A stretch of DNA of 36,791 bases from Candidatus Omnitrophota bacterium (lineage in GTDB: Bacteria; Omnitrophota; Gorgyraeia; 1-14-0-20-64-10). Positions 5,851-36,791 of the stretch are shown piece after piece (position 1 is the first letter of the stretch; each line of letters starts with the position of its first letter). The stretch spans positions 1-36,791 of the forward strand of contig JACQCH010000039.1 in assembly GCA_016201735.1 (NCBI GenBank), in the 5' to 3' direction. The translations under genes and the position numbers were made by a program. A model generated the notes under the pieces. That model was not told the DNA's origin, did not search any database, and worked only from the letters and a program-made list of their open reading frames with translations.

Positions 5851-6250
5851 GGCTGAAGGCCCCGGATCGGCGCGAGGCGTCCGGGGTCCTGTCGAGTGAG
5901 TGTCTCCCGGCATCGGGCCCTGTGTCATGGGTTTCCGATGATTTCCCGCCCTTCTGATTCACGCCCATTCCTGCTTGCTCAGTCCGGGCTTTGGGAGGAT
6001 GTGGTTTCTCTTGGACATCAGTTTATAAGGTTGGCCCTGCTGGGGGGAGCCACTGCACCCGCCACCCCTGGGTTCGCCATGTGCAAAGGCCCCGGCTCAG
6101 CGGATGAGTTCGAAGACCCTCGGAGGCCCGAGCGGGCATGGTGTCCCCTGGGAGCTGGAATTCCGGGGACGAGCGAGGGCCGGAGTAGGAGCGAGGCAGC
6201 CACGCTGGGGCTGCCGAGCGTGTCTGAGAACTCGCCGCTGAGCCGGGGCC
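5851..6250 (+). ncRNA. Structured RNA element, copy 1 (HEARO/omega-RNA-like?)
   Basis: This fills the 425-base gap between ychF and the aspartase gene. The core (6088-6250) is closed by a 16-bp perfect stem, 6088-6103 with 6235-6250. Inside are a GTCCCC/GGGGAC hairpin (6143-6148/6165-6170) and a GGCAGCC/GGCTGCC hairpin (6195-6201/6209-6215), plus CCGAGCGGGCA (6128-6138) and GAGCGAGGG. The upstream 240 bases resemble the region beside copy 2, with shared CCGGGGTCCTG, TCCCGGCATCGGGCC and GGCCCTGCTG. GTGA follows the element at 6255-6258. No ORF here looks real. The identity with HEARO/omega RNA is a recollection-based guess; the repeat family and its base pairing are seen directly. Confidence 0.7.
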
Positions 6251-8649: not shown

Positions 8650-9429
8650 TTGGTGGAAAAACTCCAGCGCCTTCGACAGATTTTTCGAGAGATGGAATCG
8701 GTGCTGGTCACCTTTTCCGGCGGGGTGGACTCGGTCTTTCTGGCGAAGGTGGCGGTGGAGACATTAGGGGAAAAGGCCGCGGCGCTGACCGCGGTTAGCC
8801 CAAGCCTGCCGGCCGCTGAACTGGAAGAGGCCAAAAAGCTGGCCGCCCAGATCGGGATCCGGCATCTTTTGATCGAATCCAAGGAGTTGGACGACCCCCG
8901 GTACGCCGCCAACCCGGTGAACCGCTGCTACTTCTGCAAGACGGAGCTTTTTTCACTGGCCAGCCGGGTGGCCCGAGAGGAAGGGTTGGCCTGCGTCGTG
9001 GATGGGACCCACGTCGACGATTTAAAGGATGTCCGGCCTGGCCGGCAGGCGGCGAAGGAATGGCAGATTCGCTCGCCGCTCGTCGAGGCCGGGTTCACCA
9101 AGGAAGAGATTCGGGAGAACAGCCGGGCACTCGGCTTGCCGACGTGGGATAAGCCGGCGATGGCCTGTTTGGCTTCCCGGCTTCCGACCGGGACGGCGGT
9201 GACGCTGGAGCGATTGTCGAAGGTGGAGGCCTGCGAGGCGGCGGTGAAGCGGCTGGGATTCCGTCAGTTGAGGGCAAGGGTTCAGGGAGAGTCGGTCCGA
9301 TTGGAGTTGGAGCCGGCGGCGGTGGAATCGTTGGCCGCGCCCGGTGCCGTCGAGGAATTAGTGAGGGCCTGCCGCGGGGCAGGCTTCGAAAGAGTGCTGC
9401 TGGATTTGGCGGGATATGGGAAAGAGTGA
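8650..9429 (+). CDS. larE: ATP-dependent sulfur transferase LarE
   Basis: The 259-residue PP-loop protein activates and thiolates the pyridinium dicarboxylate precursor of the nickel-pincer nucleotide cofactor of lactate racemase-type enzymes. The pyrophosphatase motif SGGVDS is at 23-28. NRCYFCKTEL supplies C93 and C96, and MACLASR supplies C173, at the sacrificial-sulfur cysteine position. Three cysteines in these places match the LarE type that uses a [4Fe-4S] cluster as a renewable sulfur carrier rather than sacrificing one cysteine. No larA, larB or larC is in the window, so the cofactor user must be elsewhere or the protein serves another thiolation. Start is TTG 8650 or GTG 8653, right after the previous TGA. 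The 3' end overlaps the nfo frame. Confidence 0.88.
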   Translation: MVEKLQRLRQIFREMESVLVTFSGGVDSVFLAKVAVETLGEKAAALTAVSPSLPAAELEEAKKLAAQIGIRHLLIESKELDDPRYAANPVNRCYFCKTELFSLASRVAREEGLACVVDGTHVDDLKDVRPGRQAAKEWQIRSPLVEAGFTKEEIRENSRALGLPTWDKPAMACLASRLPTGTAVTLERLSKVEACEAAVKRLGFRQLRARVQGESVRLELEPAAVESLAAPGAVEELVRACRGAGFERVLLDLAGYGKE

Positions 9430-10375
9430 AGCGACTCTTCAATCCATTCGTGCTGAGCAAGCCGTTCATCCTTCGACTAAGCTCAGGATGAACGGCGCGT
9501 CGAAGCAGCTTCCGCGGCTGGGCGCCCACATGTCGATGGCCGGCGGATTCCACCTCGCCGTCGAGCGGGGGCTTTCGGTAGGATGCCAGACGATCCAGAT
9601 CTTCACCAAGTCGAACAATCAATGGGACGCCCTCCCGATCTCCGACGAGAGCGCCAAGACCTTTCAGAAAGCGGTGAAGAACAGCGGCGTCGGCCCGGTG
9701 TTCGCCCACACGGCGTACCTGATCAACGTCGGGTCCCCGGAAAAGGAGACCTTCGAGAAGTCCAAGAAGGCGCTCAAGGTGGAAGTGGAGCGGGCAACGA
9801 CACTGGGCTTGGCCTTCATCGTTCTGCATCCCGGCTCCCACAAAGAGACCGGTGAGGAGCCGTGCTTGAAGCGGATCTCCGAGACAGTGGTCTGGGTACT
9901 GGACCAGACGAAGGGTTCTTCCGTCAAGGTGCTGTACGAGATCGCCGCGGGGCAGGGATCGGCGGTCGGGCACACGTTCGAACATCTCAATACCTTGCTG
10001 AAACTGACCGGCCGCCCGGACCGGACCGGGATTTGCCTGGATACCTGCCATCTGTTCGCGGCCGGTTACGATCTGAGGACGCCGGCCGCCTATCAGAAGA
10101 CGATGGACGACTTCGATCGGATCGTCGGGTTGAAAAACATCCGAGCGATTCATCTCAACGATTCCAAGAAGGAGTTGGGGGCCCGCGTCGACCGGCATGA
10201 GCACATCGGGCAGGGTCAGATCGGATTGGAAGGTTTCCGGTGCCTGCTGAACGACCCTCGCTTCTCGGATATCCCAATGGTATTGGAGACTCCAAAAGAT
10301 GAAAAAACGATGGCCGAAGATGTCATGAACTTGAAAACTCTGCGGGGGTTGATCAAGAAGAGGAGGGCGGGGTGA
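9416..10375 (+). CDS. nfo: Endonuclease IV (AP endonuclease), Nfo family
   Basis: The protein (319 residues from ATG 9416) cleaves DNA 5' of abasic sites in base-excision repair. It is a TIM barrel with a trinuclear zinc site; the ligand motifs are all present: GAHMSMAGG, AHTAYLINVGSP, LHPGSHKETG, YEIAAGQG, CLDTCHLFAAGYD, HLNDSKKELGARVDRHEHIGQG and LETPKDE. The first 24 residues are encoded partly by a palindromic repeat (9462-9495) and have no counterpart in the family. ATG 9488, within the repeat's right arm, would give MNGASKQLPRLGAHMS, closer to usual lengths. ATG 9416 overlaps larE, favouring coupled translation; either start is possible. The stop overlaps the next GTG. Confidence 0.93.
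   Translation: MGKSEATLQSIRAEQAVHPSTKLRMNGASKQLPRLGAHMSMAGGFHLAVERGLSVGCQTIQIFTKSNNQWDALPISDESAKTFQKAVKNSGVGPVFAHTAYLINVGSPEKETFEKSKKALKVEVERATTLGLAFIVLHPGSHKETGEEPCLKRISETVVWVLDQTKGSSVKVLYEIAAGQGSAVGHTFEHLNTLLKLTGRPDRTGICLDTCHLFAAGYDLRTPAAYQKTMDDFDRIVGLKNIRAIHLNDSKKELGARVDRHEHIGQGQIGLEGFRCLLNDPRFSDIPMVLETPKDEKTMAEDVMNLKTLRGLIKKRRAG
9462..9495 (+). repeat. Palindromic repeat at the 5' end of nfo
   Basis: CCGTTCATCCT (9462-9472) is an exact inverted repeat of AGGATGAACGG (9485-9495) around a TCGAC-containing loop. Its architecture is the same as that of the repeat in the riboswitch at 26232-26264, which has the loop GAGTTTGTCGA. An adjacent TTCGTGCTGAG at 9448-9457 matches part of that copy. 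Confidence 0.75.
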
Positions 10376-17984: not shown

Positions 17985-18000
17985 GAGTCTATCTACAAAG

Positions 18001-18059
18001 GTCATCCTCGCGAAAGCGAGGATCTTATTTGAGAGGATTCCCGCTTTCGCGGGAATGAC
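18001..18059 (+). repeat. Double palindromic repeat between adaptor and RND genes
   Basis: Two hairpins in tandem, each with a CGCGAAAGCG- or CGCTTTCGCG-type core: 18001-18024 with GAGGATC and 18036-18059 ending GGGAATGAC. The same pair occurs at 23944-23992 and, in reverse orientation, at 26360-26408. Confidence 0.85.
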
Positions 18060-21700: not shown

Positions 21701-21857
21701 CCCCACCCCTCCGGGGTCTCCTCGGCCTTCGGCCTCGTCGGTCAGGGTCCTCACCAGCTCGGACCCGTCGCCATACACGGCCTCGTTATTCCTCGGCCGG
21801 CGACCCTGTCATGGAGCAGGCCAGTTCCGGCCTCGGGCCTTGTGCGGAACTACGAGA

Positions 21858-22260
21858 GGCCCCCGGCTCGTGGGAGGGCTTCTCAGGCCCGCTCGTCGAC
21901 CCCAGCGTGGTCGACTTCGCTAATCGAAAATCCCTCGCTCGTCCCCGGAATTCCAGAGCGCGGGGGACACCGTGCCCGCTCGGAATTTTCATTGCCTTCG
22001 AAGCCCCTCCCCCGAGCCGGGGTCCTCGCATGAGACCTTCGGGGTGGCGGGGAGCGGTCCGATTCCCGTCAGCAGGGCCGACCCTTGAGGCCGAGCCCTG
22101 TCGAATGGAAACCCATGCTGAAATGAACGACCTTCCATGGAACGTCCTGTTGGGTTTGGCCACCTGCCGGTGCTCTGACATGGTGAATGTGAACAATCCA
22201 TCCGAATGAGGCCCGATGCCGGGAACGGACCGCTCCACGCCAGGACCCCGGGGTGGAGCC
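21858..22260 (-). ncRNA. Structured RNA element, copy 2
   Basis: The gap between the two RND genes (21701-22285) holds no credible gene. On the minus strand the core (22025-21858) is closed by a long stem, CCCCGGCTCG with CGAGCCGGGG plus GGGAGGG with CCCTCCC. Inside are the GTCCCC/GGGGAC hairpin and a GTCGACC/GGTCGAC hairpin (21895-21901/21909-21915) whose three changed pairs compensate relative to copy 1; the loop ACGCTGG is unchanged. CCGAGCGGGCA and GAGCGAGGG are kept. The 5' flank to about 22260 shares blocks with copy 1. The remaining 21701-21857 contains only small GC-rich hairpins such as CGGCCTTCGGCC. Confidence 0.68.
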
Positions 22261-22285: not shown

Positions 22286-25200
22286 GTGAACCTGCCGAGC
22301 TTCGGGGTAAGACGCCCCGTCACCATCGCGATGCTTTTCCTCTGCTTCATCCTGATCGGGATCATCGGCCTGACGCGACTTCCCATCGAGCTTTATCCCA
22401 ACTTCAGTTTCGGAGATATTTCGGTGATCGTGGATATCCGGGGCGGGATGCCTCCCGTGGAGGTGGAATCCAGAGTTACCAAGATCATTGAGGAAGCGAT
22501 CGGCGATACCACCCACATGAAGGATCTCATCTCCATCTCCGAAGAGGGCCGGGCCCGAGTGGTTTTGTCGTTCGAACCGGGCACCGACATGAATTTTGCC
22601 GCTCTGGAAGTCCGTGAAAAATTCTCGAAGGTTCGGTCCAAGCTGCCGCCGGAGATCGAGAAACCGATCATCGCGAAGTTTGAGCAGAACGACCAGCCGA
22701 TCGTCATCACGGCGGTGACCGCCCTCGATTCCACTCCGGAAATCTTGCGCCGCCTCGTGGATGAACAGATCAAGGATCAGATCATGCGGGTGGAGGGGGT
22801 GGCCAACGTGGAGATTGGAGGCGGCCGGGAGCGGAAGATCCTGATCGAGGTGGATCAGGATAAACTCCAGGCCTACCGCCTGCCCATCGACCGGATCACG
22901 CGGTTCTTGAGTGTGAGCAACTTAAATCTTTTGACCGGGGAGGTGGAGCGGCGGCGCGACAAATACCTGATCCGGGCCATGGGGGAATTCCACTCCCTCT
23001 CGGAGATTGAAAACCTGGGGATTGCCACGACTCCTTCGAACTCGATCATCCGCCTCAAGGACTTGGCGACGGTCAAGGATTCTTTTTTGGAGGCGACCAG
23101 CTTCGCCCGCGTCAACTCCCTCCCGGTCGTCTCCCTCTACATCCAGAAAGAGACGACGGCCAACACCGTCAAGGTGGCTGGGGAGGTCTTGAAGACTTTC
23201 GATCAGATCCAGAAAAACCCCAAGATGCCTCACAATCTGAAATTCATCGTCACCTACAATCAGGCGGTGCAGATCCAGAAGGCGATCGAGGAGGTCGGGT
23301 CTGCCTTGATCAGCGGGGCGGTTCTGACGATCCTGGTTCTGGGGGCCTTTCTGGGCACGAGCCGGTTCGTCCGGCTGCTCTGCATCCCCTTTATGTTCGG
23401 GGTCACGGCTCTGGCGCTGGCAACCTACCGGTACTCGATCGTTCCGATCCATGTCACCACAGGGATCATGGATGGGCTGCTCCTTTTGCTCCTTGCCGGC
23501 GCGGCCATCTGGAAACATCTTCGCCTGACGCTGATCGTCGCGATCGCCATCCCCTTGGCGACGGTCATTACCTTGGGGCTGATGTTTTTTCAGAAGCTCA
23601 CCTTGAACATCATGACTTTAGGGGGTCTGGCGATGGGGATCGGGATGCTGGTGGACAACTCCATCGTCGTCCTGGACAACGTGATCAAACGTCTGTCACA
23701 GGGGCAATCCAAAGAGGCAAGCGCGGTGGAGGGGGCTTCCGAGATGCTCCTGGCGATCGTGGCGGCCACCCTGACCCACATCGTGGTGCTCCTGCCGATT
23801 GTCTTCGTCAACAAGGAGATCCGGATCCTGTACACCGGATTCGCGCTGACGATCAGCTATTCGCTGGCGGCATCCCTCTTTGTGGCCCTGACCGCGGTGC
23901 CTCTGCTGGCGGTGCGGCTGCCCTTTCCGGTGGCCTCCGAAACGTCATCCTCGCGAAAGCGAGGATCGGATTCCCGCTTTCGCGGGAATGACAAAGGGGT
24001 TTTGAAAACGGCGTTCCGAAAAATCATCATCGGCTCGTTAAGATGGCGTTGGGCGATCGGCGTGGGAGCTGTTTTCTTGGTTCTCGCCAGCTTCCAGATT
24101 TTCAAAACCATCCCGAAGGAATTCCTCGGAACAACCGAGGCGGAGGATTTCACGATCTTCGTGGAGCTGCCCACCGGGGCGAAACTGGACATTTCCGATC
24201 AGGCCGTCTCCAAGGTTGAAAAGCTCCTGAAGGATGTTCCGGAGGTCAAATCGGTTTCCTCCCGGGTGGAGCCCTGGTCTTCGAAGGTGTATGTGAAGTT
24301 GGTTCCTTTGTCGGAGCGGAGCCGCTCCACCAAGGACCTGATCGAGTCGCTCCGCCCGCAGGTGCAGGAGGTCGAGAAAGGGATCCGGGAGGCCTTCATC
24401 TATTTTGAAGAACCGGGGCAAACGGAGACCAACGAGGTGATTCTGGAGATTTACGGCTGGGATTACGAGGTTTTAAACCAGCTGGCCGTGGAGATGCTCA
24501 AGAGGATGCAGCAGGTCCAGGGATTGACCGACCTGAAGATCCGCTGGCGCCGGGGCCGGCCGGAATGGGAGATCCGGGTGGACAAGGTCAAGGCGGCCCG
24601 CTTTGGGCTGATGGTGGAAGATGTGGCCAACGCAATCCATGCCCAGATGCGGGGCCTGCGGGCCACCCTTTATCACTCAGCGTCGAAAGAAGTGGAGGTG
24701 ATCACCCGTTTGGAGGAGGCGGACCGGGCGACCTTGGAAAAGCTGCGCCGGATGACCTTCATCCTGCCGAACCGGGAGGTGGTTTTTTTGGAGCAGATTG
24801 CCCGCCTGGAGCCGGGGATCGGCCCCTCCAAGATCTGGCGAAAGAACCATGAACGGATGATCCAGGTTTCCGCCAACCGGGGACGCTACGCTTTTGGGGA
24901 GGCGGCCCAGAAGGTGTTCGAGGCGATTAAGGAAATGCCGTTTCCGAAGGATTATTACTGGCGCTTCGGGGAGAATTATTGGAAATTGATGCAGAATCAA
25001 AAGGAGCTTTCCTTTTCCTTGAGTTTGTCCCTGGTTCTGCTGTTTCTGGTTTTGGCCTCTCTGTTTGAATCTTACACCCAGCCCTTCATCATCATGATCA
25101 CCGTCCCGTTGGCGACCATTGGGTCCGTGGTGATTTTAAAGTTGATGAAACAGGCGTTGAACGTGGGAGCCATGATGGGGGCGATCCTGCTGGGTGGGAT

Positions 25201-25585: not shown

Positions 25586-25759
25586 AAGCTCCAACTCGGG
25601 GGCGGGTTCTCGGGACGTTCGCCGGCCCCGGCGAGGCCGGCTCACTCACTCTCAAGCCCTCGCTCTCCCGCTTTTCTAGACAAAGGATTTGAAGGAAGCG
25701 GGATCCATGCCCGCTCGGGCTTTCCAGTGCCCTCGAACCCATCCCCCGAGCCGGAGCTT
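25586..25759 (-). ncRNA. Structured RNA element, copy 3
   Basis: On the minus strand AAGCTCCGGCTCGGGGG (25759-25743) pairs with CCCCCGAGTTGGAGCTT (25602-25586): 17 pairs, two of them G-U, which points to an RNA structure. The second stem is now TCCCGCTT/AAGCGGGA and the third GCCGGCC/GGCCGGC with loop TCGCCGG. CCGAGCGGGCA and GAGCGAGGG are conserved. Upstream sequence differs from copies 1 and 2. GTGA occurs 7 bases beyond its 3' end. It lies 36 bases after the second RND gene, on the opposite strand. Confidence 0.68.
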
Positions 25760-25928
25760 TCTCTGAGACGGAATTCCAGTTGGCCCGAATCCCCGCGACG
25801 GGGGTGCCTACCCTGCTGGCGGGAGCCCTCCCGCTCCCTCCCCCAACCATTGAGGAGGCCTGCCTCTAAACTTGCAAAGCCTCTGCGATTCAAATTGTTA
25901 ATGGCGATATTAATTTTATATATACACC

Positions 25929-26172: not shown

Positions 26173-26293
26173 TCTCCCCGATAAAGGCAAACCCGTCGCA
26201 AGATGGGGACGCAAAGTCACGGGTCCAACGACCGTTCGTGCTGAGTTTGTCGAAGCACGAACGGCATGGATAGCCGGACTGCCGACATGGAGA
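26173..26293 (+). ncRNA. Cyclic-di-GMP-I (GEMM-I) riboswitch
   Basis: The conserved core is AAAGGCAAACC (26183-26193), then stem CCCGTC-GCAA-GATGGG with a GNRA tetraloop, GGGACGCAAAG, the P3 arm, and ATAGCCGGACTGCCGA (26270-26285). The P3 arm pairs TCCA (26224-26227) with TGGA (26267-26270), has an internal loop resembling a tetraloop receptor, and is then extended by a genomic palindromic repeat. P1 can be closed by TCTCC (26173-26177) and GGAGA (26289-26293). That GGAGA is also the Shine-Dalgarno for ATG 26300, so ligand binding could hide it and switch translation off. G at the position before GCAAACC fits c-di-GMP, though cGAMP variants exist. It lies upstream of the giant secreted-protein gene. 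Confidence 0.88.
26232..26264 (+). repeat. Palindromic repeat forming the distal P3 stem of the riboswitch
   Basis: CCGTTCGTGCT (26232-26242) and AGCACGAACGG (26254-26264) are perfect inverted repeats around GAGTTTGTCGA. The same family lies at 9462-9495. Here it extends the P3 helix beyond the tetraloop-receptor-like internal loop. Confidence 0.85.
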
Positions 26294-26299
26294 ATAACG

Positions 26300-26350
26300 A
26301 TGAGTCGACAGTCCAATGGAACCCAGACGAAATATCCGCGAGTTTTTTAA
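26300..26350 (+). CDS. Putative 16-codon leader peptide ORF after the riboswitch
   Basis: ATG 26300 has GGAGA six bases upstream and reads MSRQSNGTQTKYPRVF before TAA at 26348-26350. Its frame differs from that of the giant gene, which starts 60 bases later. It may be a leader ORF translated under riboswitch control, or the remains of the original start of the giant gene, displaced when a palindromic repeat (26360-26408) inserted. Confidence 0.4.
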   Translation: MSRQSNGTQTKYPRVF

Positions 26351-26359
26351 AGAGGCCCC

Positions 26360-26408
26360 GTCATTCCCGCGAAAGCGGGAATCAGATCCTCGCTTTCGCG
26401 AGGATGAC
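26360..26408 (+). repeat. Double palindromic repeat between riboswitch and giant gene
   Basis: It is the reverse complement of the repeat at 23944-23992: GTCATTCCCGCGAAAGCGGG first, then the GAGGATGAC-ending hairpin. Its right end supplies AGGA (26401-26404), a plausible ribosome binding sequence for TTG 26412. Confidence 0.85.
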
Positions 26409-26411
26409 GCT

Positions 26412-29400
26412 TTGCGGGGGGTGATCATCCCGTTGGATTCCCCGAAGCGGCGGCCGATCCTTCGTTTTATCTCCGCAGTTACCTGCTTTACCTTTATTCT
26501 CACGCAAGCTCCCTTCATTCGAACCGCTTCCGCGCTTCCTACGCATCCGACCGGTGCGGAAAATATAGCCAACCTCAACAGCATCGCCAATGCTTCTAAC
26601 TTGGTTAAATTTGAGCAATCGATTCGCAACCTCCAAGAGAGCATCGAACAGAAACGAAAATACAACGTAGCGATGGCGTCGCTGATCGCTGGGGCTCGAA
26701 TTATTCGGGGAATCGAGTCTCACGTGAACGAGATTGCCCAGGGAGCGCAAACGATCTATCAGGTGAGCTCCGGTGGGACCAATGTCATCGACACCTTGGC
26801 CGGCGTGGCCGGCGGTTACAACATCGCTGCGCCCGGGGATATTTTGTCGATCACCACGAGCGCCAATGGAATCGGCGGCGTGGGAATCGTCAAGCCCGGT
26901 GCCATTGAGTTTAATTATTCCATCCAGAGACAGAAAGACGAGCGGTTTCCTGTCTTAAAGATCTACTTCAAGAACGGGCAGGTTTCCCGAATCACGAATG
27001 AACGGATCAATTCCCCAGGAGGACCTTTCTACCGCGACACGCTGTTCCATCAGTACCACAACGGCCTGCCGATTTCTTACCAGGCCTTTGAGTACCGGGT
27101 GATCGACGACTTGCCTCATGATGCATTTCCCGGCGGGGTCCTGCCTCTGCGGGACATTACCTGGACAGGGAAGTGGAGCGAGGATTCGAAGTTCTATGCC
27201 TCGAAAACAACCCAGGCGAAGAAGAAACTTCTGGAGGAGGCGATCGATACGATCACCTACACAGCTTACACGCCGGGCGACATTCGGCGGATCATGGACA
27301 AGATCGCCGAGGTGACGCAGAACGGGGATTCCCCCGCCTGGGTCAAGGCCATGCAGCAGGCCCTGGCTCCCGGGGGCGGGATCCGGTTGGGAGTGGTGGA
27401 CGAGCGGCGAGACCTGGTTGAGAAGTTCTACCGGGCGCACGATGGACAGGGCCGGCCGACTCATTGGCATGAGGTCCGGACCGATTACTCAGGGATGACG
27501 GAACCGGCCGGAGTCACCGATGCGCAGGTTACCGTCGATTACATCGACGACAGCGAGAAAAAGATACGCACCTACAATGAGGTGGGCACTCACAAGGCGA
27601 TGTTCGTCAGCCCGTCCGGTTACCAGCGGTACGCCGACTGGTCGACGCAAATCCTGGATCATCCCGAGGCCTTCCCGCAGGAACAGGTGGACGCGGCCAG
27701 GCACGTCAGAGAGATGATGAATCCGGGCGGGCAGTTGACTCCGAATCAGCGCTATGAAAGCACCTTCACCCTGGTGCGGACGTACGGCTCAAACGATTAC
27801 AACGACAAAGAAGATCCGATTCATTGGAAGGAACGGCGTACCTCCTCGACCGGCCCGGACACAGAGATAGAGACTACCATGACTTACGATTCCGAGCAGC
27901 GGATGGTCAGGCAGGTGGATGAGATCCGGGAAAAAGGTTCTTATTCGGCGGCAGACATTGATTCGTACTGGGATCTGGTCCGCAGGATCAAGGCCAAAGG
28001 GGTTGACGCCACGGCGGCGGATGTCCAGCGGGCCGGGGACCTGCGGCTTAAATTGGACAGCGGGGAGATCTCCATTGAAACCCCGTTTGTCCGGAATCAG
28101 AAGGTGACCCGGGATGGCTTCGTCTACAACGATTCCCGGCTGTCGGTGGAGTGGATCCAGACGGCCCAAGTCGGCGGCACGGAGACTCGGGAGCGTTTCC
28201 TGACTTATTACAACGACGGGCTCGGCCGCAACCGGGAGCTGTTGGTGTACACCGATGAGAAGACCCGCCTGGAGGACGATGTTCGCCAGAAGCTCCGGGA
28301 GCAGGCGTTGGCGATCTTAAGAAATCCGGACTCGACCGAGGCGGGGCTCAAGGCGGCTCAAGAGACGTTGGCTTTTCTCAGATCGGAGCAAGTGCCGACC
28401 GTTTTTTCCCGCAGTTCCATCCGATACCGTGGAAAGATCATCTACAACGCATCGAATCTTCCGATCGAATACACGGAGGTGACAACTTCCAACGCCGATC
28501 GGATCGCCACCCAGAGCCACGTTCAGGCGATCGTCTACAACCCGATCGGATTGGAGCTAAGCTCCTTCTCTCAGATTCAGCGGACCGGGACGGGCACCCG
28601 CAACGCCTACTTCTTGTCCGACGGGACGACGGAGCTGACCGCCCAGACGGCCCCGATGCTCCGGAGTTTGCTGGCGGCCTATTATTCGACCGGCAAGCAG
28701 GCGGCAATCCAGGATTTGATCGACCTGGGAGAGATCCAGGCCTTTGACGCCCAGGGCAACTCGATCACCGAGCAGCAGATCGAAGGTATCCTCCGGGCCA
28801 ACCCGATCGTCATCAATCAAGCGACCACCGGGAAACTGGTTGACCAGGGGATTCTGGTGAAGCAGCCGGACGGCTCCTATACCGATGGGGACGGCAATGT
28901 GCGGAGTCAGGCCGAGATTGACGCCCTGATTGCCCAATACACCGTTACCCGGCCCAGGACGATCGACGAAGCGATCCAGGACGGTTATTTGAAATTGTTG
29001 GACCGAAGCGGGAATCCTCTGGATGAATCCAGTGTCGCGGTTCTGCTCCGCCGGCATTCGCTGGAACCGCATGTGCCCACACTGGATGAGCTGGTAACGC
29101 GGGGCGCCCTGAAGAAGGTCGAGGGTGTTTCCTACACATTGGATCAGGCCTCCAATGTGTTCCGCCACGGCTTCGCCTACGATCACCTGGCCCGGGTGAT
29201 GGAATTCACCGAAGAGACCACCAATCCCAGCGATGGGATAAAGACCACAACCCATCTTTACGGAATTACCCACGATTCTCAAGGCAGGCAGACTTCATCG
29301 GTGCAGGAGGTCCGCAGACAGGGGACGGGTCTGCGGACAACCCTTTTCTCTGAAGGGGAGGAGCTGTCGGCCCTGGACTTGCAGGAGCAGCTTCCCAAGG

Positions 29401-32400
29401 CGTGGCTCGCGGATTGGAATGGATTTGAGCTCCGGGAAGTCGAGGCCCCGATCGATCTGACCGTGATCACCTACCAGCAGGAGACCAACTACTACGGATT
29501 CAGCACCCTCGCCGAGGGGGGCCGGTCGATCATCAGCACCCGTGGAGGTCCCAGGGACGGGGTGACGGCAACGGAGGAGACCTCCTTGACCCGGTTCAAC
29601 GACAAGGGCCAGCTGCTCAGCCAGTTCGTTAAGACACAGCAGTCAGGGGTGGATACGATCTCCCTTCCTTATATAGGGGATGAGCGGCTGACGATCGAGA
29701 GGATGCAGGCGCTCCAGCAATCTTTCCCGGATTTGACCGTGAAGGACATGTTTGATGTCGGCTTGCTTCGGATGGTGAAACAGCCCAGCATTATGAACAA
29801 CGGGACCCAGACCTACCGGTCCGGGATGGAGTATGAGAAAGAAACAGGATTCCTTAAAAAGCAGATGGAGCTGACCTCCAGCGACCAGAGCCCCGGCAGC
29901 ACCACGGTGGATTTCCTGGACGCCAGCTATTCCTCCACCGGACAGCTCCTTTTCTCCCGGACGAAGAACCGGTCCACCCTGTTTGACCTGGAAGGGTCTA
30001 GCGATCTGATGACCTTCAACGCACTTGATCCCAAGGGACAGCTTCGTTACGCGGAGGCGGTCGGCACCCAGTCCAATTCTGACCTTTTTGGAAGCGGTTC
30101 GGACCGCCTGGTGCGCCGGTACTCCGTTGGGGTGAACGGCCAGTCTAAACTGGTCGCAGATATTTCTATGGGACTCGCCCGGGAGCTGGATGGTTCTGCG
30201 TTCCAAATTGGAGAGCGAACCACGTATCAGTACGATGCCTTCGGCAACGTGGTCCACGCCGATGGATCCAGTACGCGGATAGGGACCGACGTCTGGGGAA
30301 ATTTCTCGAAGCGGAGTCAGCACACCCTGTACGGGGTGATCAACGGGGATCCGAAAGCGGCGCTGACTTTCTCGACGGATCCATCGGAGCTGGGCAAGCC
30401 GGAGCCGCTGGGGACCGGTGCGACGTTCAGCCTGCTGAAGGATCAGGCCAAGCAGCAGGGGATCACCGGTTCCGCGCCGGCGCCGTTCCTGGCGAACCCG
30501 CAGGATTACGACAAGGTGACCGTCGCTGATTTAAGCCTCTTCCAGGTCTACAAATTTCTGCAGAAGTCGGATGGGAAATTGACCGGAGCCCTGATCGACA
30601 TCCCCGGCGTGCAGATCCCGGTCCTGAACGTCAACGACATCAACGTAGATGCCGCCGGGGTCATCACGATCGATTCCGGATCCGGATACAATCACGCCAA
30701 GTATGTCGTCCAGACCCTCTCGGACGGAACCGTCCAGACCACCCGGTACAGCTTCAAGTCGGAGAATTTCACCAGCAAGGAAGTGGAAGCGCAGGTGATG
30801 ATCACCGCTTCCTCCAATGGAGTCACGACGACCACCGACCAGTCGATCAGCTTCAAGGACAACAACGGCGACGGGGATACCGATGATCCGGAGGATCGGG
30901 TGGATGCGACAACGCGCGTGGTCAATGCCATCGGGCTAATCAGCGTTACCTCTCAATACACCGATGGGAATGTCAACGGCACCGTGGCGATCAGCGGAAT
31001 CGGCTATCAGGCTTCCATCTTTAATGTGACGAACGTGACCTTGAACACCGATCAGATCACGGTGGAGGGAACCGGCGTCACCTTCACCATCAACCAAGGA
31101 GCAAGCGGCACCACGATCACCAAGAAGGTCGCCGACAACCTGGATCAGACGCAGAACCAGTCGGTGACGATCCAGCGGCTGACACGGCAGGACGGGGATC
31201 TGACGGTTTCCACGCTGTTGACGGTGGTTCGGAATTCCCAGGATCAGGTGACGAAGGCGACCTGGGTCGATGAGGTGAGCCAGACTGCCTGGGCCACGCT
31301 GACCGCCCGATGGGACGATCATGGGACCGCTTCCGATTTGGCCGATGACACCGCGGCGGTGATCATCAACGGGGAGCAGGGGTACACGACGCATTATTTC
31401 GGAAAGGTGACCGATATCGGGTTTGCTGCCGGCGATCCGGAGCAAGTCGCCTTTGTGGATCATGCGTCGGATGGGACGGATCATACCTACCGGATCCAGC
31501 GGGGGAATTCGGCGCTGACGGTTCAGGACACGACGGCCAGCACTCAGACGGAGACCAGCCGGATCGGCGGGACGATCACCACCCTTTACCGCAACGCCGA
31601 TGGAACGGTCGCACAGACGATCCGGGTGGAGGAAGGCACTTATCTGACCAAGATCAGGACGTATCAGGGAGATTACCAGGCCGACGCGCCGGATCAGAAC
31701 GTGGTGATCGGCGAGGATGTCATCGGCCAGGGATTCACCCGGACCGATCTGCACATCGATTCGGATGGGAATCTCGTTTGGGCCGATGCAAACGGCGACG
31801 TGGTTCGCAGCAACACGAACCCGGGATCGGACTACCATTTGCTGACGACTCAAAGAACAATCTTCTATCTGACCGACTCCAACATTCCGAGTCAGATCGC
31901 CCGGATCACCTACGACGCCAACGACTCTGCCGTTGCGTCTCCCACCGGGGATATCCGGGACGTTTACATGGAGCAGTACAACGATTCCGGGGCGGCGGTG
32001 AAGGTGATGCAGGTGGCCCGGCAGGGAGGCGAGATCCAATGGGCCCGCCAGCAAAAATACGATCAGAGCGGGAGCCGGCAGATCTTCAATTTGGTGATGA
32101 AGACCCATGAGGATGGGTCCCAATACCGGGATCTCGTTGGGATTTTCACCGATGCGAGCGGAGCCCGGACCCGGATCTTCGCGATTCCCGACAACACGGT
32201 GATGGACGGCTCCTTCCCGAAACGGGCCATCCTCGAGATCGCCAACAGCGAACAGGTGGCGCCGCTGAGGATTTACGTGGAATCGGGAGACCCAGCGACT
32301 CTGGCCGCCGATCTTTCCACGCTGACCGAGGACCAATGGGATGGTCTGCTGGGCGGACCGATCGATCTGACGGTGAATGGGCAGACCTACACAGTTCGAT

Positions 32401-35400
32401 TGCCCCAGGTGGGTGATGCGGATGACCATTTGGCAACCCTCTCGGTTCCGGCGCCGACGCCGGTTCGAGGAACGCTGCAGATCGTTTCTTACACCGGATC
32501 CACCTCGCCGCCGGACATCAGCATGCTGGATCTGATGCGGCTGGCCTGGGCCAAGCGGATCTCGGTTCCAGGCGACGGGGATGGAGACGGGGTCGTTGCT
32601 GCCGGTGAAACCACCACCGATCCGAAGAAGGTCCTGGAGTACATCCGGCAGGGCGGCAAGGAGATCACGATTCCGTGGGACACCAACGGGGACGGCCAGA
32701 TCGGATCGGATGAGACCGTGACGGTTCAGCAGGCCGGGTTGGATCTCTCGGTTCTGTTGACGGATCAGCGGGATGCTCTGCTCAACGGGCAGGCCATCTC
32801 GCTGTCTCAGCGCCAAATTATTTCCTTCGTCAATTACACCGGGTCCGGCGCTCCTCCCACATTAGATCAGATCCAGCTCTCTGAGGCCGATCGGAACAAC
32901 CTGATGCTGGGGCAGGATGTCACGGTCGCGGTCAACGGAGACTCGGCGACGATCCGGCGCTTCAAGCCGGACACGGCAAGCAAGTTCGTCACCATTTCCA
33001 AATGGGTCAACGCGGACGGAACGGCCGGGACAGGCACGCCGCCTTCCTTGGACGGGATCTCGTTGGACGATCAGCAGTGGGCCGACCTGCAGAAATTCGG
33101 CGGGGAGATCACGGTGACCCTGGCCGACGGGACCCAGGTGACGCTGAAGTCTCAAGGCGGGCTGGCGGAGGATCAGAACAGCCGGCTCGGCGTCGGCGAC
33201 ACCACCTTGGTCCGGGGCTTGGTCGCCACCAACTTCGATTCCGACGGAAAAGCGACGAGCGGGGTCGTTCAGGAGCAGACTCTCTCCAACATTCAAATGC
33301 AGGCGACTTATTCCCAGGGGATCATCAATTACTTCGGCAATCCGGCCGACTTGAAGCTGGAATTTATTCAGAATGCGGATGGGACGACGACCCGCCGGTA
33401 TCTTTATGCTGCGGACGACCCAGCCCGGCAGATGACGATCGACATTAACCCAGACCAGTTCCTGGAGGCCTACCGACCCCAGATGGAGGGAACGCTTCGA
33501 ATCACCCATACCTTGGACTACGGCTGGATGCCGGCCGTCACCGGCTGGGATGAGATGAATGGGGATCAGGTTGTCCAGCATCACGACGGAGCGACGGAAC
33601 TGCCGCCGGCCCTCAATACCGTTCGGCTCACCGAACAACAGAGGCTGGATCTGGAGGCGGGCAGCTCGGTGGTCCTGACCACCCCGGACAAGAAATATCA
33701 AATCACCATCCAGAAATCCGCGGTGGATCCGGCTTCGTTGACCGATCAGCAGGTCAAGGACTTGAAGGCCGGTCGGTTCCTCTGGGTTGGGAGCGATCTT
33801 TTGGGGCTTCTGACGGTTTCGTCAGGAATTTATTACCTGACCAGCAAGACCACGGAGATTTATCAGGTGGAAGAGAATGCCGCCGGCATTCTCACCGTGA
33901 GAAAGAAAGACGCGCAGGGAGCTTGGACCGAGGATGTCACCGGCTCCTTCGATCAGAAGGAGATGAAGTCATTCCGGGATGCGGTCAGCCAGATCACCAA
34001 GAAACCGACGGAGGGCAGTTCGGACAAATCTCAAGCCAGTTCCGCCCCGGTGGGTTTGAGCCAGCCGATCGCTGTTGATCCGATGCAGGATGAATCCGAC
34101 ACGGACTTGGACGGCAATCGGACGGAGACGGCCCGGATGGCCCGCGTGATCTCCGTCGCGGTGACGGGCGGGACCGATTTCCCCCAGATCTCCGGGTTCG
34201 ACCTATCCGACTCCATGAGCTTAGTGGGCCTGCTGGATTCTTGGGGAAAAGGAGATTTTAAGGATTACAACGGATTCGGCTACCGGTTTGAGCATGCTCC
34301 TGATTTGCCGCCGATTGTCGGGGTCATCGGAGCCAAGGTGCTGATGGGATCGGTGCGGCTGCCTAAGCCGCCGGCCGTCGTCGGCGCCTCGGCGGGTTCG
34401 AATGATTGGAGCGGCACCAATGTGACTTACACGGAGATCACCGGGTCTACTCCTCCCAACGATACCGGTGGAAGCAATCCCTTAGCAGAACAGGTGTACG
34501 CCAAGATCGACCAGACCCTGCGGGATCTGATGTCGACCTTGGGCGGGGCGGCGGCCGGGGCGTTGGGAATTTTAAGCGACGTCCGGATCGTCGATCTGAT
34601 CAACCGCCTCCGGAATGCTTTCGGCGGATTCATCATCAACTGCGGGGCGATTGCACTCTCCGCCTTCCTGCAGGCCCGCGGCTACTTGGCCGATGCGGCG
34701 GATCAGGTGACGGCGGCCGCCCGGTTGATGGTCCGGCAGCTGGTCGATTTTGGAGAAAAGATGATCGTTCAGAGTCTGGTCGGCCCCGCCATCTCCGCCT
34801 ACACCATTCGGATGGTCGCCGATGAGATGGCCGGGGAATCGATGCAGACGATCCAGGTGGGGCCCAATTCAGAGGGGCTGTATCTTCGGATCTTGAGCGC
34901 TTCCGCGATGGCGGCGATCATCCATTTCGCCGACCACTGGGTGACCTTCCTTGGTTTGGTGCAGGGAACGGACGGGACAACTTTAGTGCGATACATCGAT
35001 TCGGATAATCAGGAACATGACCTTGACCTTGTTGATTTTCTCTCTCGCTGGAGGGTCGGCGGTGGTTTTGCCTTGGTGACGAAGACCAATCTCTCATCGG
35101 GAAGCGGAAGCACGCCGGGGCCGCCCGGGCTTCCTCCCACTCCGAGCGGACCCTCAACCGGACAAACGCCCCTTTCCGTCCGTCCGATCGAAGGAACGAA
35201 AGAGCATCTCATCTTCGCTCCTCCCATCGATCCTCATCAGCTCCTGACCGGTGCCCAGCCGATTCCTCTTCTAACCGCCAAGAACATCGACCGGATCGAC
35301 CTCGACGGCACGGCTTCCCATACCGACAACTACCTCCAGTACGACTACAACGAGGAAGGGAAGCTGGTTGGAGGCGTGGGATCCTCGACGACCTACGGGG

Positions 35401-36791
35401 AAACCGTCTTCGGCGAGAAATTCAGCAGCAGCACGCAGGATACTTACATCACCATCCAAGGACAGTTGAAGGTTGCCCAGTCCGTGACGACGAGGACCAG
35501 CTCCCGGCTGGATGGTACCGTGGTGGTCGACACCGGCGAAACCAACTTCGAATATACGAACAACCGGCCGGGCGATCGGGAGGCGCTGATGGCTTCTGCC
35601 TTCTACCGGAATCCGGACGGGACGATCCAGGACCGGTTCCTGCTGCCCAACGGCCGGGTTCGGCGCGGCCTAGTAAGGAGTGTCACCGGCACCGCTTCCT
35701 CTACATGGGTTACCGCCTTCGGTGAGACCGGCGATTCCACCACCGCGCAGAACTACGACATCACCGCGGCCGGAGCCAGGGTAACCCTCTCCGACACGCA
35801 GTCCTCCACTCATGGCATCGATGGGACGGAAACGACCTCCACACAGGTCCGGCAATTTACCTTTGATCCGGCCACCGGGGTTCTCGTGTCGGCCAGCGGA
35901 TTCACCCGCAGCCACTCCACCGATCCCTTCGGGGCGGTAACCGATACTTGGACTACGCCTACCTATCTCATCCTCAATAACCAAGCGCAGGAAGTTGAGG
36001 CATTCACCAGATCGAATACGGTCACCTTAGCCGGAGACGTGATCGATGAGGTTTCTAATGATGAGATTCTAGTCACCACCGGTACGGAAGATCCGGCAAC
36101 TTTGCCGGCCGAATACAGCAACCCATTGCTTGATGGGACTCGTCCTCCCACTGGTCGAGTTTGGGCAGGACTGCAATATGGAAGGAGACAGCAGCTGTTA
36201 ACGGCCGCGCAGATAGAAACTCTGGCACAGGTTGGTTGCGACGTGAGCGCGGCAACCTTAACAGCAATAATGGGAATTGGATTGGTGTATCCAAGGACGG
36301 GGCTATTGCTTCATCCTGGGTCGTTGTCTGTGACCCGTAGCTGGGATGGGTCCAGCACCTACGCCACAAGTTGGCGCCAGTACCAGGTGGTCATGGGGAA
36401 TACGGCAAATCTGCTGAGGCAGACGACCTTCACGATGGGTTTGGATGGGGCGCAGAACTTTCATGGGTCGGTGGGTACGTTTGTTAATGAGTTTAATGAT
36501 CCCATCTTGAAGGCGAGGATCACAGGGCGGCGTGATACGTTGGCGACAACGGCGCAGCTGGAGATTCTGGAGGAGGCGGGTCTTACGATTGGCCCCCTCG
36601 TGGGGACCGTGCTTGGTTCCGGGGTCGCCGGCGCCGCCGGCAATCTGCTGCTGGCCGGCATTTTCGGCGCTGGTTTTCAGTGGGACGGTTCCAGCGACTA
36701 TTCGGTGACGACCAACAAGTATCTGACGACGGTGGTTGCCAACCAGGTGATCACTCCCGAGACCCAGACGGTGGGCGGCGGTTTCAGAGCC
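26412..36791 (+). CDS. Giant secreted protein, at least 3,460 codons, open at the window edge
   Basis: One frame stays open from TGA 26301 to the window edge. TTG 26412 (AGGA at 26401-26404) or GTG 26421 is the likely start. A signal peptide follows: KRRPILR, hydrophobic FISAVTCFTFIL, end near TASA. Residues 40-110 look helical; then come long beta-rich stretches with YD/RHS-like strands (FAYDHLARVMEFTEET near 919). Three EF-hand loops are visible: DNNGDGDTDDPE (1483), DGDGDGVVAAGE (2055), DTNGDGQIGSDE (2090). Six or so units of the type LTxxQxxxLxxG plus a beta-hairpin lie at 32300-33800. About 2690-2890 is a C39-like peptidase: INCGAIALSAFLQ with C2744, ADHWVTFLG with H2842, and YIDSD with D2863. 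A Pro/Gly-rich linker and more repeats follow. It is probably a surface or extracellular protein under c-di-GMP control. Confidence 0.85.
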   Translation, partial: MRGVIIPLDSPKRRPILRFISAVTCFTFILTQAPFIRTASALPTHPTGAENIANLNSIANASNLVKFEQSIRNLQESIEQKRKYNVAMASLIAGARIIRGIESHVNEIAQGAQTIYQVSSGGTNVIDTLAGVAGGYNIAAPGDILSITTSANGIGGVGIVKPGAIEFNYSIQRQKDERFPVLKIYFKNGQVSRITNERINSPGGPFYRDTLFHQYHNGLPISYQAFEYRVIDDLPHDAFPGGVLPLRDITWTGKWSEDSKFYASKTTQAKKKLLEEAIDTITYTAYTPGDIRRIMDKIAEVTQNGDSPAWVKAMQQALAPGGGIRLGVVDERRDLVEKFYRAHDGQGRPTHWHEVRTDYSGMTEPAGVTDAQVTVDYIDDSEKKIRTYNEVGTHKAMFVSPSGYQRYADWSTQILDHPEAFPQEQVDAARHVREMMNPGGQLTPNQRYESTFTLVRTYGSNDYNDKEDPIHWKERRTSSTGPDTEIETTMTYDSEQRMVRQVDEIREKGSYSAADIDSYWDLVRRIKAKGVDATAADVQRAGDLRLKLDSGEISIETPFVRNQKVTRDGFVYNDSRLSVEWIQTAQVGGTETRERFLTYYNDGLGRNRELLVYTDEKTRLEDDVRQKLREQALAILRNPDSTEAGLKAAQETLAFLRSEQVPTVFSRSSIRYRGKIIYNASNLPIEYTEVTTSNADRIATQSHVQAIVYNPIGLELSSFSQIQRTGTGTRNAYFLSDGTTELTAQTAPMLRSLLAAYYSTGKQAAIQDLIDLGEIQAFDAQGNSITEQQIEGILRANPIVINQATTGKLVDQGILVKQPDGSYTDGDGNVRSQAEIDALIAQYTVTRPRTIDEAIQDGYLKLLDRSGNPLDESSVAVLLRRHSLEPHVPTLDELVTRGALKKVEGVSYTLDQASNVFRHGFAYDHLARVMEFTEETTNPSDGIKTTTHLYGITHDSQGRQTSSVQEVRRQGTGLRTTLFSEGEELSALDLQEQLPKAWLADWNGFELREVEAPIDLTVITYQQETNYYGFSTLAEGGRSIISTRGGPRDGVTATEETSLTRFNDKGQLLSQFVKTQQSGVDTISLPYIGDERLTIERMQALQQSFPDLTVKDMFDVGLLRMVKQPSIMNNGTQTYRSGMEYEKETGFLKKQMELTSSDQSPGSTTVDFLDASYSSTGQLLFSRTKNRSTLFDLEGSSDLMTFNALDPKGQLRYAEAVGTQSNSDLFGSGSDRLVRRYSVGVNGQSKLVADISMGLARELDGSAFQIGERTTYQYDAFGNVVHADGSSTRIGTDVWGNFSKRSQHTLYGVINGDPKAALTFSTDPSELGKPEPLGTGATFSLLKDQAKQQGITGSAPAPFLANPQDYDKVTVADLSLFQVYKFLQKSDGKLTGALIDIPGVQIPVLNVNDINVDAAGVITIDSGSGYNHAKYVVQTLSDGTVQTTRYSFKSENFTSKEVEAQVMITASSNGVTTTTDQSISFKDNNGDGDTDDPEDRVDATTRVVNAIGLISVTSQYTDGNVNGTVAISGIGYQASIFNVTNVTLNTDQITVEGTGVTFTINQGASGTTITKKVADNLDQTQNQSVTIQRLTRQDGDLTVSTLLTVVRNSQDQVTKATWVDEVSQTAWATLTARWDDHGTASDLADDTAAVIINGEQGYTTHYFGKVTDIGFAAGDPEQVAFVDHASDGTDHTYRIQRGNSALTVQDTTASTQTETSRIGGTITTLYRNADGTVAQTIRVEEGTYLTKIRTYQGDYQADAPDQNVVIGEDVIGQGFTRTDLHIDSDGNLVWADANGDVVRSNTNPGSDYHLLTTQRTIFYLTDSNIPSQIARITYDANDSAVASPTGDIRDVYMEQYNDSGAAVKVMQVARQGGEIQWARQQKYDQSGSRQIFNLVMKTHEDGSQYRDLVGIFTDASGARTRIFAIPDNTVMDGSFPKRAILEIANSEQVAPLRIYVESGDPATLAADLSTLTEDQWDGLLGGPIDLTVNGQTYTVRLPQVGDADDHLATLSVPAPTPVRGTLQIVSYTGSTSPPDISMLDLMRLAWAKRISVPGDGDGDGVVAAGETTTDPKKVLEYIRQGGKEITIPWDTNGDGQIGSDETVTVQQAGLDLSVLLTDQRDALLNGQAISLSQRQIISFVNYTGSGAPPTLDQIQLSEADRNNLMLGQDVTVAVNGDSATIRRFKPDTASKFVTISKWVNADGTAGTGTPPSLDGISLDDQQWADLQKFGGEITVTLADGTQVTLKSQGGLAEDQNSRLGVGDTTLVRGLVATNFDSDGKATSGVVQEQTLSNIQMQATYSQGIINYFGNPADLKLEFIQNADGTTTRRYLYAADDPARQMTIDINPDQFLEAYRPQMEGTLRITHTLDYGWMPAVTGWDEMNGDQVVQHHDGATELPPALNTVRLTEQQRLDLEAGSSVVLTTPDKKYQITIQKSAVDPASLTDQQVKDLKAGRFLWVGSDLLGLLTVSSGIYYLTSKTTEIYQVEENAAGILTVRKKDAQGAWTEDVTGSFDQKEMKSFRDAVSQITKKPTEGSSDKSQASSAPVGLSQPIAVDPMQDESDTDLDGNRTETARMARVISVAVTGGTDFPQISGFDLSDSMSLVGLLDSWGKGDFKDYNGFGYRFEHAPDLPPIVGVIGAKVLMGSVRLPKPPAVVGASAGSNDWSGTNVTYTEITGSTPPNDTGGSNPLAEQVYAKIDQTLRDLMSTLGGAAAGALGILSDVRIVDLINRLRNAFGGFIINCGAIALSAFLQARGYLADAADQVTAAARLMVRQLVDFGEKMIVQSLVGPAISAYTIRMVADEMAGESMQTIQVGPNSEGLYLRILSASAMAAIIHFADHWVTFLGLVQGTDGTTLVRYIDSDNQEHDLDLVDFLSRWRVGGGFALVTKTNLSSGSGSTPGPPGLPPTPSGPSTGQTPLSVRPIEGTKEHLIFAPPIDPHQLLTGAQPIPLLTAKNIDRIDLDGTASHTDNYLQYDYNEEGKLVGGVGSSTTYGETVFGEKFSSSTQDTYITIQGQLKVAQSVTTRTSSRLDGTVVVDTGETNFEYTNNRPGDREALMASAFYRNPDGTIQDRFLLPNGRVRRGLVRSVTGTASSTWVTAFGETGDSTTAQNYDITAAGARVTLSDTQSSTHGIDGTETTSTQVRQFTFDPATGVLVSASGFTRSHSTDPFGAVTDTWTTPTYLILNNQAQEVEAFTRSNTVTLAGDVIDEVSNDEILVTTGTEDPATLPAEYSNPLLDGTRPPTGRVWAGLQYGRRQQLLTAAQIETLAQVGCDVSAATLTAIMGIGLVYPRTGLLLHPGSLSVTRSWDGSSTYATSWRQYQVVMGNTANLLRQTTFTMGLDGAQNFHGSVGTFVNEFNDPILKARITGRRDTLATTAQLEILEEAGLTIGPLVGTVLGSGVAGAAGNLLLAGIFGAGFQWDGSSDYSVTTNKYLTTVVANQVITPETQTVGGGFRA
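32574..32714 (+). other. Two EF-hand-type calcium-binding loops in the giant protein
   Basis: Residues 2055-2066 read DGDGDGVVAAGE and residues 2090-2101 read DTNGDGQIGSDE. Both fit the 12-residue loop pattern with acidic or Asn side chains at 1, 3 and 5, Gly at 6, a hydrophobic residue at 8 and Glu at 12. Calcium could stiffen the chain outside the cell. A third, less regular loop is at 30858-30893. Confidence 0.7.
34480..35060 (+). other. C39-like cysteine-peptidase domain inside the giant protein
   Basis: INCGAIALSAFLQARGY resembles the (Q/N)CGxxxL helix start of papain-like C39 peptidases, with C2744 as the nucleophile candidate. About 98 residues on, ADHWVTFLGLV offers H2842, and RYIDSDN offers D2863, with spacing close to C39 enzymes. 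The usual oxyanion-hole Gln is replaced by Asn, so activity is uncertain. A Pro-rich linker ends the domain. Confidence 0.55.

Follow-up and report, generated by a model that had tools for sequence, protein, structure and literature searches.

The window, by which we mean the whole stretch of 36,791 nt that was analysed, belongs to a draft genome of 1.81 Mb (67 contigs, 95% complete). There is a single riboswitch match to Rfam in the window, on the forward strand, and it lies directly upstream of a giant open reading frame (Table 1). The riboswitch matches c-di-GMP-I (RF01051) at 26176-26286 and c-di-GMP-I-GGC (RF03167) at 26177-26287, above the gathering scores of 35 and 59 respectively, and RF03167 is the top-scoring Rfam model for it. 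The original prediction had described an intact GEMM-I core; Infernal was run with RF01051 as had been proposed and the score is far above the threshold, which bears this out. In the Infernal alignment the aptamer spans the whole RF03167 model and the extra bases fall in the terminal loop of P3, which is a variable position in the covariance model. The genome as a whole has 14 RF03167 matches at E ≤0.001, 9 of them above the cut-off of that family, and 14 RF01051 matches, 13 of them above cut-off.

In the computed fold the proximal part of P3 pairs 26216-26222 with 26274-26279, leaving A26219 unpaired, and the distal part pairs 26223-26227 with 26267-26271 (about 5 bp). The P2 loop is GCAA, and both A26219 and the AG at 26272-26273 coincide with unpaired positions of the model, where the tetraloop receptor is predicted. 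The tetraloop hairpin and receptor-like internal loop that had been noticed in the bare sequence were thus both found.

Table 1. Positions of the riboswitch, the palindromes and the downstream gene in the window
Feature	Position	Strand	Basis or remark
c-di-GMP-I aptamer including P1	26173-26293	+	RF03167, 70.9 bits; RF01051, 66.3 bits; P1 from fold
P1	UCUCC 26173-26177 / GGAGA 26289-26293	+	pairs taken from computed fold
P2 hairpin CCCGUC-GCAA-GAUGGG, GNRA (GCAA) tetraloop	about 26192-26207	+	from sequence
Own P3, 5' strand (GUC-A-CGGGUCCA)	26216-26227	+	fold and RF03167 alignment
Own P3, 3' strand, with unpaired AG 26272-26273 (receptor region)	26267-26279	+	fold and RF03167 alignment
Dispersed 33-nt REP-like palindrome, distal P3 hairpin	26232-26264	+	63 aligned copies, 65 exact cores
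Predicted ligand contact G20 (Vc2 numbering)	G26186	+	PMC3764141, PMC4744006
Predicted ligand contact A47	A26213	+	RF03167 consensus here is G; PMC3764141, PMC4744006
Predicted ligand contact C92	C26282	+	PMC3764141, PMC4744006
Aptamer 3' strand GGACUGCCGAC, common to P3 and alternative hairpin	26276-26286	+	
Switching strand GUCGACAGUCC, directly before ATG 26316	26304-26314	+	pairs with 26276-26286, 10 bp, one mismatch
Giant ORF, at least 3492 aa, exceeds window end; signal-peptide-like N-terminus	26316-36791	+	orthologues in 7 of 58 relatives
Second, unrelated dispersed double palindrome ATTCCCGCGAAAGCGGGAAT	26359-26408	+	leader / first codons of giant ORF
Same-family palindrome, 34 nt, one extra core base	9462-9495	-	judged by eye

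We take G26186, A26213 and C26282 to be equivalent to G20, A47 and C92, using the Vc2 numbering and alignment, and on this mapping all three predicted contacts are kept. The label 'GGC' presumably names three ligand contact positions. The sequence here reads CGCAAAG where the RF03167 consensus has CGCGAAG, so that a G of the model is replaced by A26213 in an unmatched alignment column. A G at the A47 position, as the label 'GGC' would imply, was looked for at A26213 and is absent, and for this reason we do not file the aptamer as GGC. On that definition it would be a canonical c-di-GMP-I aptamer that scores higher with RF03167, and its ligand is probably c-di-GMP. In the Vc2 structure c-di-GMP is contacted by G20, A47 and C92, and A48 is named too (PMC3764141, PMC4744006).

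ATG 26316 is the likeliest of several starts for the giant ORF and has no clear Shine-Dalgarno sequence. Pfam matches to the product are almost lacking (best, RHS_repeat at E 0.03; DUF3945 at E 0.00018 is just under the cut-off), and it is predicted to be secreted. Control of surface proteins by c-di-GMP would fit such a product. The GGAG at 26289-26292, within P1, is the likely Shine-Dalgarno sequence of a short ORF, MSRQSNGTQTKYPRVF, at 26300-26350, which overlaps the giant ORF in the +1 frame and has a run of six T at its end; enclosed in P1, the GGAG could favour an OFF effect on this ORF. A similar short ORF, MSWQTGGKEGIS, is seen in the leader of one relative (G007). We considered a leader peptide, a frameshift or chance as explanations of the short ORF.

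Two further repeats were seen in the window. The double palindrome ATTCCCGCGAAAGCGGGAAT, which the giant ORF reads as SFPRKRES within its first codons, also occurs at 18000-18059 and 23943-23992. With three mismatches allowed, it is matched in the genome 15 times on the forward strand and 17 times on the reverse (control 0); we take it to resemble the neisserial dRS3. The stretches 6086-6230, 21856-22027 and 25615-25760, which lie in gene gaps and share blocks of 51-71 nt that are 75-84% complementary or alike, are copies of another dispersed element.

The palindrome family and its place in P3

The 33 nt at 26232-26264 run exactly from CCG to CGG and their arms are paired at 10 of 10 positions. 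The core of this unit, CTGAGYYTGTCGAAG, has 65 exact copies in the genome (control 0). The 15-nt core gives 85 matches at up to one mismatch (control 1) and the near-full 27-nt inner element gives 37 at up to three mismatches (control 0), so the genome-wide family that had been claimed exists. We aligned 63 distinct copies from the loci that were fetched, which are a subset of those in the genome. The units are laid out as CCG, 7 nt, core, 7 nt and CGG; the 5' CCG is present in 57 of the 63, the 3' CGG in 26, and all ten arm pairs are intact in 25. At arm positions 1-4 and 7 different copies have alternative standard pairs (for example G-C/A-T, T-A/C-G and C-G/G-C at the same positions), that is, compensatory change. 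Many copies are arranged as inverted (head-to-head) pairs 30-45 nt apart. The core is present in 23 of the 59 genomes searched, our own included, with 65 copies here, 16 in G002, 10 in G005 and 0-5 in the others. The second copy predicted for the window was also found, as a reverse-strand relative (Table 1). It lies within the 5' end of ORF 9416-10375, where it apparently contributes extra residues before the conserved start.

REP and BIME elements are palindromic units that are often associated with a RAYT. The family here has the short palindrome, the many dispersed copies and the arms kept by compensatory change that define REP elements. No match to the Y1_Tnp transposase domain (PF01797) was found in this genome, which is 95% complete, although the same search was positive for 5 of 14 control genomes, and we therefore call the family 'REP-like'. 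The palindrome had been called mobile: it belongs to a dispersed family, but its mobility is only deduced. No description of the core as a bacterial repeat was found in the open-access literature, where, judged by titles, it occurs by chance only.

The palindrome begins four nt past the distal P3 pairs, beyond the tetraloop receptor, and when it is removed in silico P3 keeps these pairs and is capped by a short loop. It is placed in the terminal loop of P3, and the proximal P3 and the roughly 5-bp distal P3 are the riboswitch's own. The original prediction equated the distal P3 helix with the 33-base palindrome and proposed that the palindrome had become, or replaced, a riboswitch stem. The exact unit is there and it forms the tip of the stem, but the base pairs beneath it belong to the riboswitch and the stem was not replaced. 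The further claim that the fold is unbroken agrees with the covariance-model scores and the computed folding, according to which the aptamer should still form. The palindrome probably arrived as an insertion. The expected number of insertions into a P3 loop by chance is 0.0066 if copies are spread uniformly (85 copies, 14 aptamers, 10-nt loops) and 0.055 if insertion is confined to an assumed 12% intergenic part of the genome. Such a hit is thus unlikely in any one genome but expected somewhere among thousands.

Long P3 stems and repeats in other riboswitches

Among the 139 aptamers listed for the relatives, whose true total is larger, 45 have a length of 95 nt or more, and 17 match or exceed our own aptamer at 111 nt. 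Long P3 stems are therefore frequent among the relatives and only the origin of this extension is unusual, not its length. Taken together, the data support the original interpretation with three corrections: the palindrome is inserted in a loop, its mobility is deduced, and a long P3 is ordinary.

There is a second, independent case in a relative, G024, with a palindrome family different from ours. The aptamer at G024:C53:20308-20444 (RF01051, 71.1 bits) carries two tandem hairpins in its P3. When G024 was searched with a pattern that covers the hairpin plus its 3' flank, there were 28 matches on the forward strand and 22 on the reverse (control 0), which we estimate as about 30 places because palindromic sites may count on both strands; the pattern has none in our own genome and one in G056. 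The tandem pair in P3 accounts for two of the G024 matches. A further copy, at G024:C11:12382, lies within an FMN riboswitch (L193:1408-1597; RF00050, 90.4 bits against a gathering score of 66.2), in a stem that is variable in the model. That one palindrome family is found in both c-di-GMP and FMN riboswitches suggests a general route and not a curiosity.

In the remainder of about 30 loci of this family (L170-L199; 28 from G024 and one from G056) no other copy was placed inside an Rfam match, and at 40 repeat loci of our own genome none was placed inside another Rfam match, placement being judged by coordinates relative to the repeat at about position 1500 of each locus. Otherwise the Rfam matches at the scanned loci were to tRNAs, to a cspA thermoregulator and to a single further c-di-GMP aptamer; the members at C58, C64 and C75 of G024 and the one in G056 have no Rfam match at E ≤1.

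Twelve other long aptamers from nine genomes (three from G032, two from G057 and one each from G036, G033, G027, G012, G028, G039 and G007) had no dispersed copy of their P3 in 65.5-140 kb of their own genome each. With 4-9% of each genome sampled, a small family would have gone unnoticed, and the positive controls were loci picked for holding the repeats. The search returned one 14-nt match at E 0.024 (G032) and one match to the reversed control (G012). The P3 of a 161-nt aptamer, G032:C49, was rejected as a repeat: its 22-nt core occurs once in G032. Of the long P3s examined for repeats, two are positive, our own and G024:C53, both picked partly for their repetitive look. As the others are negative in the sequence sampled, repeat-derived stems appear to be a minority of long P3s.

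We also scanned 84,980 genomes for the core, in either orientation, between c-di-GMP-I anchors. The only match, in Pontibacter ruber, was rejected as its sequence does not contain the core. The scan needs exact anchors and near records of our own genome may be missing from it, so it shows only that the same combination is rare.

Orthologous leaders, switching and alternative explanations

Matches to the first 600 residues of the giant ORF are present in 7 of 58 relatives, and 5 of these 7 have an RF03167 match in the leader at E ≤0.01 (G002, 68.1 bits; G010, 66; G003, 40.5; G007, 36.7; G008, 33.6), those of G003, G007 and G008 being under the gathering score. The palindrome core is in none of the seven leaders, including the five with a detectable aptamer, and in none of 40 fetched aptamer loci of relatives (36 of at least 95 nt, picked for length, and four short ones). 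The P3 tips of the orthologues are unrelated to ours, G002 and G010 sharing a different tip; in G003 it is P2 that is enlarged and in G007 there is an insertion in J2/3. This places the insertion best on the branch to our own genome, and it looks specific to this lineage, as judged from seven relatives of which none is a congener. The proposed comparison of orthologues thus gave what a lineage-specific insertion predicts. Unrelated P3s in the orthologues together with the lack of any repeat family had been named as evidence against the reading; only the former is found, since the family exists.

Hairpin insertions in J2/3 were seen in two c-di-GMP-I-like aptamers, L014:1501-1658 (G000:C56:6465-6622, our own genome) and L153:1999-2167 (G007:C114). 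Both lie between GACG and the ligand-contact CAAAG and add a further helix, the fourth or fifth, to the junction where the ligand binds.

The strand 26276-26286 closes P3 and continues into P1, and its duplex with 26304-26314 has a computed energy of -17.5 kcal/mol, matched by 3 of 300 shuffles (p 0.01). The same test of downstream pairing gives p ≤0.05 in 13 of 19 aptamers (9 of 14 in our own genome and 4 of 5 orthologous leaders); L007, L009, L010, L011, L012 and the G010 leader are the six where it is not significant. In several other aptamers of our own genome this pairing is followed by a U-run, as it would be in a terminator, which suggests that the ligand should block the pairing and switch the gene ON. 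At the present locus it is a start codon that comes after the pairing, and a translational ON switch is our best guess and, on these models, the most likely mode. With the ligand bound, 26276-26286 would stay in P3, so that 26304-26314 is unpaired and the start at 26316 accessible; in the absence of ligand the two strands would pair and the start region would be buried. The giant secreted product would in this way come under c-di-GMP control.

With the palindrome the computed energies are -58.6 kcal/mol for the aptamer and -61.3 for the alternative state (gap +2.7 kcal/mol); without it they are -37.6 and -40.0 (gap +2.4 kcal/mol). These values describe secondary structure only and leave out ligand, tertiary contacts and co-transcriptional folding. 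The palindrome contributes about 21 kcal/mol to both states alike, which would explain why it is tolerated, and it is probably near neutral for switching.

The explanation that we consider likely as a whole is that a REP-like palindrome of 33 nt spread in the genome, that a full copy entered the P3 terminal loop of a canonical c-di-GMP-I riboswitch, and that it was tolerated there in a translational ON switch. The hairpin would be self-contained on top of P3. Because it is distal to the P2 tetraloop receptor and the ligand site, the aptamer would still fold, and because it is equal in the ligand-bound and alternative folds, the switching balance should barely change.

It is possible, but we think rather unlikely, that the palindrome has instead been domesticated, its strong hairpin nucleating P3 co-transcriptionally, pausing the polymerase or protecting the leader and so tuning the switch. 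The perfect arms (10 of 10) are consistent with this, as are the G024 palindromes in P3 and in the FMN riboswitch; diverse P3 extensions are also common in the relatives (45 of the 139 aptamers listed are at least 95 nt), which suggests that they are at least tolerated and perhaps useful. However, 25 of the 63 family copies have perfect arms too, so perfection here needs no local selection, and the computed energetics of the switch are unchanged by the palindrome.

The insertion might also be a symptom of relaxed constraint on a decaying riboswitch. At the orthologous locus the G008 aptamer is truncated (L151:1335-1412, G008:C137), the G005 leader (L154 upstream of 1501, G005:C61) is c-di-GMP-I-like by eye with no Rfam match, and the G004 leader (L146, G004:C2) has no recognisable aptamer; these make up a series, at a single locus, in which the riboswitch is lost or altered, and the switch may be under weak selection. 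In our genome, however, the core is complete with high scores, the predicted contacts are intact and the competing downstream strand is kept, which makes decay improbable.

Two last readings have very little in their favour. Long unrelated P3s are frequent, so the extension might merely resemble the repeat or the family might have arisen from this P3, but dozens of copies share the whole 33-nt unit with its non-symmetric core, G002 and G005 have 16 and 10 copies of the core and none in their orthologous leaders, and the dispersed copies already contradict both versions. Equally improbable is a chimeric assembly that joined two unrelated halves at a repeat: short-read misjoins at repeats can occur in a 67-contig draft, but the sequences on either side of the palindrome pair with each other, completing P3 and P1 and giving one full-length covariance-model match, and relatives have the same gene downstream of this riboswitch.

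Comparison with known systems

How the peripheral stems of riboswitches originate, and why they vary among orthologues, is an evolutionary question to which this locus speaks. The source sequence, the insertion site and the states before and after can all be named here, in an uncultured bacterium from the environment, and the case is directly testable as the family members, the reconstructed empty site and the palindrome-free orthologues are all identified. We are evenly divided on the broader proposal that dispersed palindromes are a recurring source of variable peripheral stems across unrelated aptamer classes and drive the rapid evolution in size of stems such as P3. It is based on two palindrome families, unrelated to each other and each in a genome of a different taxonomic family, and on two riboswitch classes, c-di-GMP-I in both genomes and FMN in G024. 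Crossing repeat families with the variable stems of riboswitches over all genomes is the search that this suggests.

Both the aptamer and the style of repeat are known. No report of a REP or MITE inside an aptamer stem was found in the open-access literature, and the combination is new as far as that literature shows. In comparison with c-di-GMP-I (GEMM-I, RF01051) the core elements, GNRA loop, receptor region and predicted contacts are alike and the difference is that the distal P3 is a dispersed genomic palindrome. The likeness to c-di-GMP-I-GGC (RF03167) is in the best score, and the difference is the CGCAAAG motif. Like REP elements and BIMEs, the family is short, has dozens of copies, covarying arms and a directional core, and is often paired head to head; the differences are that no PF01797 transposase was found in the genome and that one copy is within a riboswitch aptamer.

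A review of MITEs regards the formation of riboswitches as conceivable, and it points to potential T-box motifs within BOX elements (PMC10969869). Prokaryotic MITEs and the Rickettsia palindromic elements treated there are also small palindromes that enter functional sequences non-destructively; those of Rickettsia lie inside protein genes, and the accessible part does not describe insertion into an aptamer stem. The nearest parallel in an RNA leader comes from BIMEs, which have been exapted as transcription attenuators in 5' leaders (PMC2965389). In both systems dispersed palindromes are recruited into 5' leaders as RNA structure, but there the attenuator is the palindrome itself, whereas ours makes up a peripheral stem in an aptamer for a ligand.
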